From Globisporangium splendens (lineage: Eukaryota; Oomycota; Peronosporomycetes; Pythiales; Pythiaceae): a stretch of 64,000 bases of DNA. Below are positions 41,174-53,953 of the stretch, one piece after another. Both the position numbers and the translations under genes were made by a program. The number at the start of each line of letters is the position of its first letter. The first letter of the stretch is position 1. The stretch is taken from positions 1-64,000 of the forward strand of contig VFIW01000113.1 of the NCBI GenBank assembly GCA_006386115.1, in the 5' to 3' direction. The notes under the pieces were generated by a model. That model saw nothing but the letters and a program-made list of their open reading frames with translations, was not told the origin of the DNA and did no database searches.

Positions 41174-43247
<2,074 letters not shown>

Positions 43248-43880: not shown

Positions 43881-46800
43881 TTATTCTCGATTACTCGCGT
43901 CGCTGTCGTCGATCTCGTCGACTGTAATGCTCCACTTTTCCGCTTGCTTATCCAGCGGTGCTAGCTGCGACTGCGACCGAAGAAAGTCGACAAACTCGAC
44001 GCCTGTTGAAAGAAACTCGCGCGCAAACGCAGGGTCGTGGCGGCGCTCGGCCGTCAGCGGTGGCATCGTGAACTCGGCCTCCAGCTTGTCTCTCACACCA
44101 AGAAAGCCCTCTTCCGGCGCCAAGCTAGGGATCGCAAACTCGCGAATCCTCATCAGCGTAAGCTGGAGACCTGTGTGTGGACACACGTATGTATCTGCGC
44201 GGACATGCCGCACTGTTGGGATGGCACCAGACACCCCTGCCGCGATCATTTGATCGCTGAGACGAACGCGCGACTTCGTATCATCCACAAACGCCAAGAT
44301 GCCGCGTCCATCTGGAGCTTGACGACAGTACGCAGCCAGCCTCTCATGCAGAGGGTGCGTGACGGGCACTTGCTCCGTTGTCGACACGTAGAATCGGATG
44401 TCTGGGGTCGAGTCCATGGTTTCTGCCACCTCATCCAGCTCCTGACGCATCTTCAATGTCGCACTGAACCACCGCGAGGCTCGAGTCTTGAGTTTCACGA
44501 ACTGCAAGTCCGACGTCAACTTGATGATGTAGTCGACCAAGTCGTACACGATGGATGCGCTATACGTCTCGGAACTGTTCAGAAGCTCCATGCGCTTGTT
44601 CGACATAGCGTAGTCGGGGACTTTGACGCCGTGCTCTTTCTCCAACCGTGTATAAAACGAATGAGTCACGCCTTTATCTTTCTTGGCCGCCAAACTTGCC
44701 TTTTCAAGTGCAACGACGCGCTTTTTCGGGGGTAGAGTTATCTTGGCATCGTCATCCGCCTTCTGACCTGAGTCAGCCTCGAAGTCGAAAAAGTCACCTC
44801 CACCACCTCCATTGCCTCCACCACCGGCACCATCATCTCCAGCGCCTGCTTTTTCTGCTTGCCGCGCTTCTTCCTCTGCTTCTTCTTTGCGCTCTTTCTG
44901 CTTGACAACGAGAACAGACTCGTACAATTCACGCGCGCTTCGTCCTCGCTCAAACTCCTCTTCCAATTTCTTGACCGACGCGAGCGCAATCGTTTCGTCG
45001 TGGAACGACCGCGGCAAATTGATCAAATAGTGGTGCCCGAAACGAATAAACGCGTCCGCTTTCGGCTGTTGCTGACCATTCCCGCTGTGAATCTTCTCGA
45101 AACGAGAGAATTTGATCATCTGCTGAATGAACCGGGCACTGAAACACGCGGATGCGTGGTTGTACCACTCCTGACCGTTCATAAAACACACCAGATGCGC
45201 TTGATGCAGTGGCATGTTGTCGTGGAGGGTGTGACGCTCGCCGAGATATACTTGGAAGCCAATTTGGTCTTCTTGGGAAACAGCTCCTTCGAAGAGCACT
45301 AAACTCGAGCCTTCGCGGTGGAACGATTGGATTGACCGTTTGAGCGTCGGCGCGCCGAGCTCTTGCTCGATTCGCTGAAGCTTTTCCTCGATGCGCTGCA
45401 CCGAGTCGCCATCGCCATATATCTCTGCAACGTACAGGTCTGGTCGAAACGAGTTCGGGTGGCGCACAAACACCAGCGTCGTGTCTTTCGATGCTTTTGA
45501 TTCGATCAGGATCTTCCGAGCGAAGAAATCCTTCGACTCGCACACGCGCTTGCTCAATGCGCGACTGAGCGTCACTTTGCTCGTCTGGTCTCTTTGTTGC
45601 GTCAGTAAGCAGTGGATATCCCCGCGAGAAACGAGCAGCAGATGCACTGCGACGTGGCATTCTTGCTGAAAAGCTGGAATGCTTGCCTCGGACAACTGCG
45701 TGTTGTTCGCCTCGTCAAAAGGATCTTCGAAACCAAACTCACTCAACGGCGTGGAAAGGTTGGCGTAGTAGCTCAAGAACGATAATAACACGTGGGCAGC
45801 CGACGCGCTCGAGTCTGGAGTACCCGTCACCAGTTTCTTCAAGTGCTCGGTCCAAAACGAAATCTCGGCATCAATCGTGTTTTGCTCTAAAATAGGCTCG
45901 ATCGCCATCTTGCGCCAGTCAATTCTCTCCACAAAGTTGTTGGTCAAGCAAAACCGCAGGAACAACCACATGAAACCCGTCGGTGAGAACAGATTCTGCC
46001 CACCGCCCGACCGACGGCGGATGACACCCGCGCATTTCCCCCATCGCACGAGGAAATACACGCACGGCCAAAAGAATGGGTACTTTTCCATGTATGTGCG
46101 AAAGAGTCTTGTCTTCAATGGACCATTGCTTGACTGGCAGAGCTCGACAAACCATTGATCGTACGAGAACGAAAGAAGCGGGACGCGAACCTTCTCCTTG
46201 CGCTCCAACTGACTGGCTGACTTCGACTTTTCGAGAAATTTGGCAACGTGCTTCAGCTCGCTGCACTTTTCCTTCGAGTAAATCATGACATCAAGATCAG
46301 ATTGCTTTTCAAACGTGAGAAGAGCCGAAGAGCCAAATAAAACCAATTCGTACGGACGAGACTTGAAATGAGCTGCTAGAGAGGAGCGCAACGCGCTCAA
46401 TGCAACCTGGCGATCAAAGAGATCCGAAAGAAACTCGTCCGTTTTCTCCTGGATTTCAGCCAACAGGCTAGTTTGCAGCTCTGGGATAATCTCTTCGCGA
46501 GTTTGCACGCGGATAGGCTTCCACAATTTCTGTCGGTATGCGCGTGTGCGTGACGCTTTATTCGCGATCAAGATGTCAATCATAACCCACGAAAAACTCA
46601 AACATCGAGTCTCCGTGTCAGGATCATTGTATGCGACATAATGCCATGCTGCTGCGACTTGTCCCATTCTTGACGGCTGCAGCACTCCGAACTTGGAGGC
46701 AAATTCGTTTCGAAAGGATTGCTGCAGGTCGTAGAAAGCGTCTCTGCACTGGTCTCCGAACCGAAAGTACTCGGCTTTGTTCAGGCTCTCTGGCTCAACG

Positions 46801-49800
46801 ATCATGCCAGTAGCGAGCTCGGCCTCGGACTTTGCACCTGACGACAACAACAACGCTGACACTTGATGCTTGTACTGTCGGTACATGACACTCGCTATTT
46901 CAAGGTGATCTCTGTATCCGTCGACGAGCAAGTCACTGTCCACCTCTGCACCCACTCCACCGCTTCTGGCAATTGTGGCTTCCATAATGGCATCGCATCG
47001 CCGATACATCTGGCCCAAGATCTTCTTTGACGGATAATTCCCTTTTTCGCTATTCCTCATGAAGTCGGGATAAATCTTCGGCGCCAAGCTTCTGACGCGC
47101 TCTATATCTTCGTCGGCATGATTGTGATCGACTTGGCTCGAGCAGATGCGAGCAAGTTCTAAAGCACCTTCGTCGAAGATTCCCTTATCCGAATAGTCAC
47201 AAACCGCTAGGTGCGCGTTGGACGCTATACCCAGAATATCGAACTGAATCGACTTGAGATAGAAATCAATCAGACTTTGATCGTCAACGCCTTCAATTGT
47301 GTCAGTTGCCATTGCGCTTTGGAACTCCATCGGCGCCTCGACGTTCTCCCTCTTCGGGATGAGCCGTTCGTCCCAAATCACTGTGAAGACATCGCCATCC
47401 AGATCGCCCCCAGTACACTCGTCTGGATGTGGCCGTGGGCCGTCGCATGGGAACACAATGCAATCTTTGAGGGAGCGGAGCTGCGCAGGGACGTCAGAGC
47501 GGCAACGAACAATTCGGATATCGCCGGGGTGGTGACACGGGCTTCGATGAATCACGACATCGATTTGATCCAAGATGACTGCATGATATTCATCGCTCTC
47601 CTCGTCCTTCTCAGTGTATTGGACAAACACCTCGCCATACTTCAGTGTGCTCGTGAAATCCGCCACCCCCATCAGCGTTCGTCCTTTCGTAATCGGTATG
47701 CGAGCCCGGAGAACTGTGTTGGCGAGTTTGTATCTGTAGATCGCATTCACAATTGACGCCAAAAATCCATCCGAGAACAGCGGCACGCCGAGTTGCTCCA
47801 AGAGAATCTGAATCGACCAGCTGATCTGCGCCGGCAGCACACCTTTGAGGGCAAAATACGCTTCTGCATCCGACGCAATCATTGAGCTCAGCTCTTCCAA
47901 ATACTCGTCCTGCATCGTCAAGAAGATGTCATCTTGGATTCCCAAACCGCTCAAAATCTGGATGCTTTGACGAGTCAAATAGGCGATCGAACGACCAGCA
48001 CACGCCACAACTTCGAGCACTCTGTGCTGAGAGCGGAACTTCACCATACTCTTCCGAAGCACAATGCCATCTCCTACGTCTTCCAAGGCATTGGAGACAT
48101 TCGACACGACAACGACGCCTTTCGCGCCGCCCAAACGGATTTGAAACGCGGACGGAACAGACCGGAGATTCAGCGCGGCAGCAATCTTAGCAGCCCCATG
48201 CTTGGTTATTTCACCGCAGCCGTCTGTAAAGACAAATCCGCCATACTCGAAGTCAGAGACCGGATTTTCTACGACTTGTTGCTCCACATGAAAAGCTGGC
48301 TTCGTAGACGAGAACGCCTGACTCAACCGCTTCAGGTACTTTGCAGGAGAATGAATGGCACTGAGATCACCAACCCAAGACCGGACCACGTCAGGGTCCA
48401 ACGATGTGAACACACAGCTGCTGTTTCGTATTTGGCTCAACGAGCTGCCCAAAAACTGAAAGAGACGTGGACCATCGGCCACATTGTCCACGGATACACC
48501 CTTCGCCATCACACTTCGCAACTGTTTCACGATTTCCACGTTTGAATACTCCAACCGATCGAGATTCTCGTCGCGAAAGTACACGTACATGAAGTTTCGA
48601 GCACCAAAGTGACGAAACACGCGGTTGTTTGAGGCACTTTCGGGCGGACGGAACAACACTCGGGTCGGCGTGACGATAACCTTGAACACAACGTCCTCCT
48701 TCTTCGAACTCAGCTCTTTCAGTGTAGTCCACTCGTCGCTAACGTACTGACGAAACAGATCAACCATGTACCCGCTTTTGAGAGATGGTTGGAATGCAAG
48801 CAGCGCCTTTTCTTGAACACCGTGATCGAGTCTCGACAAGATCTTGTAAAAATCGGGATCCAAAACCCCATTTGTAAAGTAGCTGACTCGCGACTGGAAA
48901 CAGTGGTACGCGTACGCGACGTCAAATGTGAATTGTAAACGTGGCTGAACTTGAGATGTGTCGCTGCTGAATGTGTCGCGTTCTACGACCGATACGAGCG
49001 AGTCTCTCACTTCGATCCCCAACTTCATCAGCAAGAGCCGCATTTGCCAGGCTTCAATTCCAGCTGACGAAGCGCATCCAACTTTCGCGTGAAACACGAG
49101 AGATTTGTACTGGCAATTGGTGTGGATCCGAGCACCGCTCCGGTAGAAGTGAGGTGGTACCTGCAGGGATACAAACAGAGAGACCACACCGTTTGACGAC
49201 GCGGCGTCAAACCACACAAACTGGTCACTCAGCTGTCGGAGATCCAGCCGAATGGCCATCTTGTCAGCAACTTCGAGCATGATACTTGCGCCATGGAACG
49301 ATATGGATCCGTTTTCGCCATCTGAGGTGTCGATTTGTTCGGCAATCACAAACTCATCGGACGCATTCCAGTACCCTCTGTTCAACTCAAGCAGCCGAAG
49401 TTTCAAACCTTGGTCTGCTTTGTCAAACAAGTCCTTTAGTTGAGGATCCACTTCAGTGTTCTCAAACTTCATCCACAAACGACCGCCTCCATGTCCGTCT
49501 TGGAAATCCAACGATCTGCAGAGCTTGTGATACGACTGGACGATGCTGTCTTTCGGCAAAGGCTCGAGCGTGCACAAACCCAGACTCGATTCAACCAACC
49601 GCACAGCAGCGTGTTCGTCCAACGCCGCCAAGATGGCGTCCCAAAAGGCATCGTCGTGGTCAGACAACATAGAGCCGAGAATGATACTGTACATGTTCTC
49701 CGGCGTATCAATGGGCGAAAGATGCACGTCGGAAAGTGCTGCTTTCATTTCGGATGATGCAGCAGGTAGTCTAGGTACCAACACAGGCACCTCTCGATCC

Positions 49801-52336
49801 AGGAATCTTTGTGCGGCCGACTTTGATGGTAAACTTGACGCAACCCGTTGCGCAACAGCAAACAGCCTCCCTTCAGTATCGACGATTTTTTGCTGCCGTT
49901 CAACTCCCCCGGGCGAGCAAAACACGATAAATCTGCTGTTGTCTCGTCGTGCTCTCCCACGGCTCTGAATCAGACTGGTCATCCCCTTAATCCCGTCGAA
50001 TTGGATGACCAGCGAACACTCCGGTACATCTAAGCCCTCCTCCAGCACGTTTGTCGCGACCAGCAGACGGATCCAGCCTTGTCTGAACCGATTCAGCGTT
50101 GGCTTTTGCTCTTCTTCCCACGACATGCCTTCGTACGAGTTGTGTCCAATGAAGCGAGTCGGATTCAAACGCTTGAGCTCAGGCACCTTCTCCATGGCCT
50201 TGGCGAGTTCAATGGCAGTCTTGCGACGGCGCACAAACACGATAGCTCGAGACTCGTGCGTGAAATTCGCTTCTTTGATGCACTCGGCTACACGAAGAAC
50301 GCGAGATGACACGTGCTCCGTCTCAGGAATCGCACCTTTTGAGTACTTGCTGTCAAATCCCACGACCGTCGAAAGCAAATGCGCCTTGTAGTCAGAAAAG
50401 ATGAGCGCGTATTCCTTCTTGGCAGCAGGAGACGAGGCGAAATTCATGTTCTTGAAACGAGAATGCAGTGCTCTTGCAACGTGAGCGGCTCCATGGATCG
50501 CCAGATCAAAGAACGAGCTCACAATAGCGCGAGCATGTCTTAGCAACAGCACCGCGTCGGTAACTTTCAGGTCGCTTCTGAAGCCCTGCTCTCGCTCCTG
50601 CAGAAGCCGCAACCGCGCCAAAAGCTGGGTGAGCTCCATGTCATCCATATCAAAGTTGGTTCCGACAAATGCCACTTCATTACCGAGCGCCTCGGCAACG
50701 CGAACCAGTAGTGCCTCAACGTATTTTTTGAGCTGGATTCGTAGCGTCAGTTCTGCTGGAGACGGCTCCACGACGACCCATTGTGCCTCCTTTGTAGATA
50801 AAATCGACTGGAGGTCCTCAGCTCGAATCGTTGGGGTATTTGCTTGTGCACCAAAGCACTCAACGAGTCGATTCAGAGTCTTTTGGCCAGATTCAATGTG
50901 TTTCGCTTCGCCAAAGGGTGATGCCGTCAGTGCCAAGATCCGAGGTCGTGACTCGCCTGGCGTCGCGGCAATCTTCTGCAAAATGGAGCGGTATGGATGA
51001 TCTCCAGTCGCATGGTGTGCTTCATCAAACACCATGATGCAGAAGTCGGACACGGCGACGATATGATTGAACAGGAGATTCGCAAAATACATGGGCGTCA
51101 CCACGAGTGCGTTGAGGCTCGGGTCTTCCACCAACTGTCTGCGTTTCGACGCGAGCTTCGCAGTGTGCTGACCTGATAGCTCCAACACGTTCAACTCGGA
51201 TTCGCGGCGGATATACGCTGCCTGCTGCGTCACTAGTGGCCCGGTCGGAACGAAAAAGACCGCGAGCAGCCCTGGGTTTAACCGAACCATGTCGTCAATC
51301 ACTTTGACCGCCACCAAGGTCTTCCCGGCACCTACATACAACACGAACACGTCACGCATGTACATCTACAGAAACACACAGCCACGTGCAGTTGCAAGGT
51401 ACCTGTAGGAAGATAAACAATGGTGTTTTCAAACAGCGCTGACAACGCGAGCTCGACTTGATAAGGCCTCAATGTTGTGAGCTTCCCGGACGGCGTGAAT
51501 GAGTACCAGACAGACTCTTCCGTCGGCATGACGACATCGGATCGAGTTCTCGACTGCGCGCGTTGGCGCTTCGACTCGAACAGCGGCGGTGACGACGACG
51601 ACCCACTTGTGTCCTGCACGCAGCTACCACGTGCGTCGTTATTGCCGTTCGTTTCCAAAAAGATCGCCTGTGGTAGCGCATTCTCCAACGTCACCGGTAG
51701 GTTGAGGCTGTTCAAAGCGCTCAGCACCACGCCCCATTTGCGGATCGCGTTCCCGTAATGCGCGCTGAGAGGCTCCCCTGACTCCAACACGCATTCGCAG
51801 CTCTTCGAGTCGAGCAGAAACTCGCGCTCCGGTCGTTCATCGAGCACGCATTCGCCCGCAAATTTGATCTGACAGCCGCCACAGAGCAGTTCAAAGGGGA
51901 CTCGTCCGCGCTTCTTTGCCTTCGCTGTGCGTATTTTCGTAAACCGCAGCGAAGGCGTCACGTGTGCATGCGTGTCGAGGCTCCACGTAGTCTTCCGGTT
52001 ATAGTCAACGCCATCGCCTGCAGCCTGTAGCCGCGCGTACTCGTCGTCAAAGAGATGCTTGCGCAGCGCCAGGTGGTTGCTTCTCTCGTTCTCGCGGATG
52101 AAGTGCACCTGGTCGCCGCGCGCGAGCAGCTCCTTGCAGCGTCGACAGCGGATGCGCCATGGAAACGCTGACGGCGACGGCGTGCTAATGTCGCTCGTTG
52201 GCGTCCGCTGCTTCTTCGCCACCGGTTCGGAAGTGCGCGCGACGGTGGGAGCGTCCTCAGAGACGCGTGCGCCTGCGTGGGGGTTCCGTGACGGCGGTGG
52301 CGGTGGCGGCCGAGAAGACGCAGCGACAGAGACCAT
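43881..52336 (-). CDS. RIG-I-CTD/DExH helicase/RdRP/nucleotidyltransferase fusion
   Basis: Two exons, 52336-51403 and 51331-43881, give 2,794 residues in one frame; the single intron splits the Walker A glycine (YLPT|GAGKT). In order: (1) Pro-rich head, then a zinc-site module with Cys64/Cys67 and Cys152/Cys155 resembling the RIG-I C-terminal domain; (2) Dicer/RIG-I-type SF2 helicase, GAGKT at 312-316, DEAH at 414-417, [13 protein letters not shown] and QSRGRAR near 767; (3) eukaryotic cell-type RNA-dependent RNA polymerase, with [30 protein letters not shown] and catalytic GGDLDGDVF (Asp1621, 1623, 1625); (4) Cid1-like nucleotidyltransferase, VLFGSSALL (1978-1979) with Asp1990/Asp1992 in QSDLDVMIY, Glu2041 at the third carboxylate and a PAP-associated SFLSYYANL; (5) ~550 unassigned residues with a Gly-rich linker near 2470. 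It should copy RNA into dsRNA for silencing. Helicase-RdRP fusions are known in oomycetes; I know of none reported with the transferase. Confidence 0.93.
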
Positions 52337-52738: not shown

Positions 52739-53953
52739 TTACCTGTTGCCGGTCGTCATGGTGCGCTTGCGCGCAGCGATCAGCTCCTCCACAGATGAGA
52801 CCTCGGGAAAGTCTGACGGCTCACTGAACGTCGCGTTCTCCTCGACGGCCTCGCTCAGGAACTCACCCTGAGCCTGAGCGTACTTGTCTTCTTCCTTCCA
52901 CAACTTCTGCTCGGTCGCAATGTTCATCTCCACCATCTCCCGCGACGCGTGGGTCTGCGTGTACAGCTGATCTTCCGTCGGCGTGAATTCCGGGAACGTC
53001 GACGCCTCTGAGAACGATTCCGCTGCGCTTTCGTCGAGATTGGTGTCCAAGTGGAACCGCTCGGCGGCCGCTGTGTCGAACATCGACGCGCGGTGCAATA
53101 GCTCATCGGTGCGCGCTGAACCATGCTTCTCTAGGTCGTGCTTGAGCTCTTCATAGAGCTTGTGGAGCTGCTCCGGCGATGCTGTCGATACGTCATCTTC
53201 GTGCTGCCCGCTGCCGGCGTGCACCATGTTTTCCGGGAAATGCGACGGCTGTGAGTGTGTTGCCGCCATCTTTGTATTGCGGCTGTGCTGAGCCTGCGCG
53301 TCGTCTTGACGAGCGCCACGCGCCAGCATCTCCTTGGTCAAGTCCATCATGGACACCGTGCCGACGACGCGGCCGTCACCCTTCACGACAGGGATCGCGC
53401 TCAATCTCTGTGTGCACACATTGTGGCAAGTGTTCGTTAGCCTAGCGTTGTAAAGCCTTGAGGCTGCAGAGTGCGCAGCCAAACTTACCCGCTTGATCAT
53501 GACTTGGAGGCACCCTTCGACGGTATCTTCTGGGTGCGCGACGACCAGTTTCGAGTGCATAGTCGCCACGTCCGCGACCTTGGACGAGCTCACGCCCATT
53601 TGGCTCCCATTGAGCACTTTGTCAAAGTAGTCATGCTCGGTAAACATTCCAACGACCTGGTCCACAACGAGTCAGCGTTAGCCACAATGCACGCCATCAT
53701 GGAATAGGCAAACACATCTTTCAGACAGCACCTTGTCGTCCTTAAGCACGGGGATCGCGTCGATGTGGTGCTTGACCATCAACTGCGCTGCGCGCTCTGC
53801 AGGCATGAGGTGGTCCACTGTCATGGTTTTCTCAGGAGATGAACCGAGCAGCGCAGCTACCGTGGTCTGGCCACCTTGGAGCGCGCGGGTCGTAGAAATC
53901 CATCGCACCGTCGAGGGCAAGAAGCGAGTTGCTTGGATCGTGCGCGACAGCAT
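52739..53953 (-). CDS. Mitochondrial CBS-domain protein
   Basis: Three exons in transcript order (53953-53732, 53656-53489, 53407-52739) give 352 residues in one frame. The start MLSRTIQATRFLPSTVRW is a basic, acid-free amphipathic presequence, so mitochondrial import is predicted. A tandem CBS pair follows: VDHLMPAERAAQLMVKHHID and AIPVLKDDKVVGMFTEHDYF, then VAHPEDTVEGCLQVMIKRRL and SAIPVVKGDGRVVGTVSMMD. CBS pairs bind adenosine nucleotides and act as energy or redox sensors. The remaining ~170 residues are acidic, helical and contain three spaced FPE motifs (SHFPENM, STFPEFT, SDFPEVS), with no catalytic domain. The stop codon overlaps a good GT donor (AACAG|GTAAGT), so an additional 3' exon is possible. 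Confidence 0.85.

Follow-up and report, generated by a model that had tools for sequence, protein, structure and literature searches.

Can a single polypeptide hold the polymerase, the helicase and the terminal transferase that RNA silencing elsewhere divides among partner proteins? The RNA-dependent RNA polymerases (RdRPs) of RNA silencing are usually studied alone or as one subunit, their partners being found one by one. The question is raised by a gene (43881..52336, (-)) of the oomycete Globisporangium splendens (Pythiaceae), found in the window analysed here (the whole stretch of 64,000 nucleotides at positions 1 to 64,000 of contig VFIW01000113.1) and encoding a protein of 2,794 amino acids (aa). 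An earlier note, made from the DNA letters, had read this protein as one chain with three activities. The three catalytic modules that it named are all found; the modules at the two ends of the protein and the wide spread beyond oomycetes had escaped it. The reading preferred here, with a probability of about 0.6, is that the gene encodes the sole RdRP detected in the genome and that this is an RNA-silencing type enzyme in an ancient five-module form. The same probability jointly covers the identity of the modules, which would be an end sensor resembling the C-terminal domain (CTD) of RIG-I, a Dicer/RIG-I-type helicase, the RdRP, a nucleotidyltransferase (NTase) of the terminal uridylyltransferase (TUTase) type and, at the C-terminus, a module resembling a triphosphate tunnel.

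Three catalytic modules in one chain

The helicase, of the Dicer/RIG-I DExH type, occupies aa 285-795 (49881..51484, (-), split by the intron). It carries the motifs GAGKT (312), DEAH (414) and QSRGRAR (767) and is matched by the Pfam models Helicase_C (4.8e-17) and DEAD (1.2e-10), and its motor domains match the Dicer and RIG-I helicases along their extent. The RdRP catalytic region (aa 1198-1756; 46998..48674, (-)) is matched by PF05183 at 3.6e-149 over profile positions 1-581 of 582. It contains the motif GGAKGVVVV (1379) and a catalytic loop of the DbDGD type, DLDGD (1621), whose columns are nearly invariant in 27 rows. The PF05183 match and this loop place the protein, as far as sequence goes, among the cellular QDE-1/RDR-type RdRPs. 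The helicase motifs and the RdRP core that had been claimed are both present, conserved and supported by Pfam.

The Cid1/TUTase-type NTase lies at aa 1930-2207 (45645..46478, (-); ends chosen for the profile) and is recognized by Pfam, profile and fold. Its motifs are FGSS (1977) and SDLDV (1989), with GS at 1978-1979, D1990/D1992 and E2041 as the expected residues. The Pfam models NTP_transf_2 (7.5e-6, 26.7 bits for a cut-off of 21) and MTPAP-like_central (PF22600; 5.2e-6, 27.0 bits) both match. The NTase profile matches GLD-2, TUT4/7 and Cid1, and the predicted fold, a two-domain catalytic fold, spans the whole TUTase catalytic module; the transferase identity withstood this test. Among the domains for which a search had been proposed, the RdRP, the helicase and NTP_transf_2 were therefore matched; the PAP-associated domain model (PF03828) was unmatched at E<=1, though the fold match covers that region. 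The catalytic triad is kept in the window protein and in all 36 aligned oomycete-type rows. A degenerate NTase in Phytophthora, hinted at by absent precomputed Pfam matches, was rejected, as the motif is intact in 36/36 aligned rows.

The fused NTase is not explained by want of another, since the genome has 17 NTase matches, two being copies of this gene. Among proteins of about the length of the module, a profile search with nine NTase fragments gave one short free relative, P0197 (227 aa), and the shared 5-residue words that this search requires limit what a lone match means.

One chain might nevertheless be made and then cut into helicase-RdRP and NTase parts that act as a conventional complex. 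Fission yeast and nematodes normally use separate subunits, and cutting would be invisible in sequence, but the junction offers no long linker. The RDR structure match extends to about aa 1910 and the NTase fold match begins with the first residues of a model starting at aa 1930, where confidence is good. Moreover, most of the 36 oomycete-type rows have 11 residues between the RdRP and NTase profile matches, so that no varying insert is seen there. Such cleavage is very unlikely, and an intact chain is retained as the preferred reading.

Modules at the two ends

Upstream of the helicase, aa 56-224 (51665..52171, (-)) are predicted to form a Zn module like the CTD of RIG-I, MDA5 and DRH proteins. 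Both the predicted fold and four cysteines in the expected arrangement (C64, C67, C152, C155) point to this type and to Zn binding. Unlike in RIG-I-like receptors, the CTD is N-terminal of the helicase (aa 56-224 versus 285-795), and it is also N-terminal in relatives where it was detected. A weak match to DUF6504 in exon 1 (E 0.012, below cut-off) was set aside.

The C-terminal module (aa 2283-2775; 43941..45419, (-)) is predicted to adopt the RESC1/RESC2 fold, of the triphosphate-tunnel pseudoenzyme type, with a low-confidence insert near aa 2477-2528. R2624, R2686 and E2729 are invariant in 8 aligned rows of this module. An oomycete-only profile of it matched 16/31 other tails at E<1e-3. 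Another, covering NTase and C-terminal module and trained on six cnidarian-type proteins, matched 72/197 proteins at E<1e-3, a count that includes its training rows; the window protein was matched at 9.5e-32. In the parts available of PMC10201420 and PMC12936278, RESC1/RESC2 are said to lack sequence homology beyond kinetoplastids. From its predicted fold, the module would be a candidate relative of these proteins outside that group.

Gene structure and constraint on the frame

The gene is read from open frames and their spliced translation. Exon 1 (52336-51403, (-)) and exon 2 (51331-43881, (-)) are separated by a 71-nucleotide GT-AG intron (51402-51332, (-)), and the spliced frame, which was checked, has 2,794 codons and one stop, so that the single frame with one short intron described before is exact in its coordinates. 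Splicing joins LPTG to AGKT and thereby completes the Walker A motif of the helicase. Taken by itself, exon 2 forms an open frame of 2,494 aa that includes the RdRP, the NTase and the greater part of the helicase; the fusion of RdRP and NTase is therefore independent of the intron model.

RdRP is matched twice in the G. splendens genome (53.3 Mb, 195 contigs), in the window copy and in one on contig C180 (161000-170900), both open throughout. The C180 copy is 97.8% identical to the window copy over 8.8 kb and, like it, has a single open frame, of 2,496 aa in exon 2. Relative to the window coding sequence it lacks 114 nucleotides and has 6 additional ones, both totals being multiples of 3, and at least 60 of the 114 map to window positions 52296-52237. 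The two copies look like two haplotypes of one gene. Near-equal pairs also occur for one Argonaute match and one RNase III match, which fits the expectation for an assembly holding both haplotypes. Between the two copies, the ratio of nonsynonymous to synonymous changes per site (pN/pS) is 0.11 in the NTase (4 nonsynonymous and 10 synonymous changes), 0.16 in the C-terminus (15 and 28) and 0.16 in the helicase-RdRP interval. It is 0.24 for the RdRP core, 0.26 for the helicase, 0.33 for the stretch directly behind the RdRP core and 0.47 for the N-terminal region, all values resting on few changes. Since the ratio is low in the NTase and the C-terminus, the reading frame looks constrained along its whole length, these two modules included. 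A chance or annotation artefact was rejected: a single exon holds both RdRP and NTase, the frame is open in each genome copy and the NTase is found in 36/37 of the closest homologues.

Distribution of the fused architecture

Helicase, RdRP and NTase occur together in the corals Acropora and Montipora, in Nematostella, in the green alga Bryopsis, in the liverwort Riccia fluitans and in the chytrid Physocladia obscura; the first homologue search also gave proteins from Albugo, Macrostomum, Aphanomyces and environmental sequences. The lineages of some homologues are those that the names are presumed to indicate. There is support for all five modules in oomycetes, the coral-type protein P0039, Montipora, Riccia, P0150 (a jgi 'Mesen1' sequence, probably from Mesotaenium) and Physocladia. 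The Nematostella model stops past the NTase and that of Bryopsis inside the C-terminal module, and the NTase of the alga Ostreobium is degenerate. The order of modules is identical wherever they are detected. In the gnat Pseudolycoriella hygida, a partial protein on a 137-Mb contig (P0067) has Helicase_C and RdRP by Pfam and no Pfam NTase; an NTase-like stretch with a GS/DxD/D set was picked up by the first-round profile (39 bits). The fused type would not be expected in an insect.

Fused proteins also form a second, separate group (P0095, P0097, P0098, P0104, P0105, P0113, P0117 and P0066), with members from the flatworm Macrostomum, the oomycete Aphanomyces and environmental sequences. This group is one clade in the RdRP, NTase and helicase trees; the fused type of Aphanomyces therefore differs from that of the window. 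The C-terminal module of the P0095 group is mostly unseen by the oomycete-only profile.

Oyster, scallop and brachiopod RdRPs match the cnidarian-trained profile chiefly over the C-terminal module, and no helicase was flagged in them. Six such proteins (P0130, P0132, P0135, P0134, P0137 and P0040) keep this module behind the RdRP, and the alignable Lingula and Ostrea rows (P0040, P0045) have degenerate NTase residues. Neither helicase nor NTase was flagged in the nematode, tick, spider and ascomycete rows of the RdRP tree. Two further proteins, P0082 (Porospora, 2,235 aa) and P0093 (2,313 aa), have the RdRP near the N-terminus and large C-terminal parts; their helicase domains figure in the precomputed Pfam list and were not seen by the helicase profile.

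In these counts, iterated profiles train on their own hits, which inflates later bit scores, so that reliance was placed on first-round and cross-trained profile results. P0046, P0131 and P0149, which have no GS motif, are doubtful, and the NTase of Willaertia P0116 was found by the iterated profile only, the first-round profile and Pfam not seeing it.

Active transferase or scaffold

Several observations weigh against the five-module reading. The PF22600 score lies exactly at the cut-off, and the third acidic residue of the NTase is Glu in 33/36 oomycete-type rows and Asp in 3, most other proteins having Asp. By the iterated profile, 72/196 proteins bear an NTase, and the full GS/DxD/[D/E] set, found in 58/72, is missing in the other 14, including Lingula, Ostrea, Dendronephthya and Ostreobium; this suggests that the NTase is dispensable somewhere, although a few of the 14 may be doubtful inclusions of that profile. 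For the sensor, Foldseek gave just 3 matches at E<=0.001, a Mis18 chain ranks 29th, and Yippee-Mis18 is a weak Pfam match in the relative P0039; with so few strong matches and Mis18 in the list, RNA-end binding is not proven by the fold. In the P0095 group, the sensor is weak (best 2.0e-3). Finally, a profile of the C-terminal module (A4) gave no RESC chain at E<=10, and the likeness is one of fold, in a model of a single 865-residue fragment with a predicted template modelling score of 0.55.

Some of these data would fit an NTase and a C-terminus that are structural scaffolds, a degenerating transferase placing RNA or partners without any tailing. The 14 rows devoid of the residue set speak for it, as does the description of RESC1/RESC2, the best fold match of the C-terminus, as inactive in the part available of PMC10201420. 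This proposal is opposed by the triad, kept in the window protein and in all 36 aligned oomycete-type rows, and by the pN/pS of the NTase, the lowest of the seven regions (on 14 changes). A scaffold is thus unlikely in the window protein, and a transferase predicted to be active remains the preferred reading.

Evolutionary history

The trees of helicase, RdRP and NTase share 18 to 21 of 31 splits, compared with at most 3 in 1000 label shuffles. This comparison uses 38 fused proteins (with an NTase, a helicase above 80 bits and more than 2,000 aa, after removal of 26 close homologues and manual inclusion of P0186, P0066 and P0067), four with partial helicases being left out. With 17 hand-picked lineage representatives, 5 to 8 of 14 splits are common (at most 3 in shuffles); in both cases splits were counted whatever their support. 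These data suggest that the modules mostly travelled together. In the RdRP trees (196 proteins, 190 of them usable, 168 after thinning of 22 close homologues), cnidarian and green-algal fused proteins adjoin bilaterian RdRPs without helicase, with weak basal support. A single clade of all fused rows was not rejected by the approximately unbiased test (p-AU 0.209; 57 rows hand-picked after the first tree was seen, 24 fused versus 33), so that these trees do not tell a fused subfamily apart from an ancestral condition that was later lost in places.

The patchy distribution, the weak support at the tree base and the groupings of the RdRP trees (green algae with cnidarians, the flatworm Macrostomum with the oomycete Aphanomyces) would be expected if the arrangement was not ancestral and arose several times or spread by horizontal transfer. 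However, the module order is the same wherever modules are detected, the three trees agree far beyond shuffled labels and one fused clade is compatible with the data, as one origin would allow; contamination is opposed by long host contigs (about 22-77 Mb in Acropora, Nematostella, Montipora and Riccia). Repeated fusion or transfer is therefore somewhat improbable, and one origin followed by losses fits the sequence data best. An early merger into one chain apparently brought together jobs that other organisms divide among separate proteins.

A broader and speculative scenario, rather improbable in its entirety, would place a single chain with a 5'-end sensor, helicase, RdRP, terminal transferase and second 5'-triphosphate holder deep in eukaryotes. 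The nematode RdRPs with their RIG-I-like helicase and Cid-type partners and the yeast Rdp1-Cid12 pair would then be broken-up descendants or functional rebuilds, the mollusc and brachiopod proteins intermediates of loss, and RESC1/RESC2 kin of the C-terminal module.

A model for the all-in-one polymerase

Taken together, the modules suggest the following model, in which unwinding, copying, tailing and their coupling in one chain are inferred from sequence. The sensor and the helicase would engage the ends of a template or duplex and clear structure. The RdRP would then copy the template, yielding a strand with a 5'-triphosphate. The NTase would extend a 3' end with untemplated nucleotides. It would thereby either tag the template to be copied or recopied, template tailing being what MUT-2/RDE-3 does in nematodes with poly(UG), or finish the product, a variant represented by the nematode CDE-1. 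The C-terminal module, the sensor or both would grip the 5'-triphosphate end, and one molecule could thus handle both RNA ends before the duplex passes to Dicer. Argonaute is matched at three places in the genome and RNase III at six.

Deposited gene model and neighbouring genes

The deposited G. splendens protein P0002 (3,131 aa) is 98% identical to the window protein over the region searched. Its first ~335 residues come from the upstream CBS-domain gene (52739-53665, (-)) and are followed by the RdRP protein; the deposited model seems to merge two genes. Downstream of the RdRP gene, 42765-43247 (-) reads like part of an AGC-type protein kinase gene, from a motif seen by eye.

Comparison with known systems

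Fusion of a helicase to RDR, already cited as known in oomycetes and Dictyostelium, is indeed in print for Peronosporomycetidae, Dictyostelium, Hydra and Nematostella; overlapping cDNA and rapid amplification of cDNA ends confirmed how the P. sojae RDR gene is built (Bollmann et al. 2016, PMC4791657, as far as its main text was available). The Peronosporomycete proteins (P. sojae RDR, P. infestans RDR1) share gene family and helicase-RdRP order with the window protein, and that text describes helicase and RdRP domains only; the words 'transferase', 'nucleotidyl' and 'RIG-I' do not occur in it. Similarly, in the main texts available of PMC10080066, PMC12768352, PMC6396948 and PMC3522703, 'nucleotidyl' is absent and 'transferase' occurs only within methyltransferase. 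In the open-licence literature searched, supplements excluded, no description was found of the fused transferase, of which the earlier note knew none either, or of the two end modules; PF22600 is already assigned to some of these proteins in automatic Pfam listings. The all-in-one polymerase proposed in the earlier note is right in architecture and predicted in activity.

Such a chain, with RdRP, RIG-I-like helicase, terminal transferase and end modules covalently joined across oomycetes, corals, algae and a chytrid, would be a purifiable object for studying how choosing a template, unwinding and copying it, tailing 3' ends and handling 5'-triphosphates are coordinated, and would link RIG-I-type sensing and RdRP-driven RNA silencing in one molecule.

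The fission yeast RNA-directed RNA polymerase complex (Rdp1-Hrr1-Cid12) likewise brings together RdRP, helicase and Cid1-type NTase, but as three polypeptides, whereas the window protein is one reading frame. We know of no RIG-I CTD or RESC-like module in this complex. Since Hrr1 is not known as a RIG-I/Dicer-type helicase, that comparison, offered before, is loose, and the other one offered, with the nematode RdRP complexes containing DRH-3 and CDE-1/MUT-2, is better. These also consist of separate proteins, and DRH-3 has its CTD behind the helicase, not ahead of it as in the window protein. RIG-I, MDA5 and LGP2 share the helicase type and the CTD fold with its CxxC pairs, but in the reverse order, the window protein being additionally fused to RdRP and NTase. 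Cid1, TUT4, TUT7 and GLD-2 share the catalytic motif and fold of an NTase that is here built into an RdRP chain. The trypanosome RESC1/RESC2, whose predicted likeness is one of fold, form a stand-alone heterodimer in mitochondrial RNA editing (PMC10201420 and PMC12936278, in the parts available), whereas the window module is part of a long chain. As compared with these systems, the window protein is a helicase-RDR of known kind; its two end modules and the depth of its distribution were not expected.

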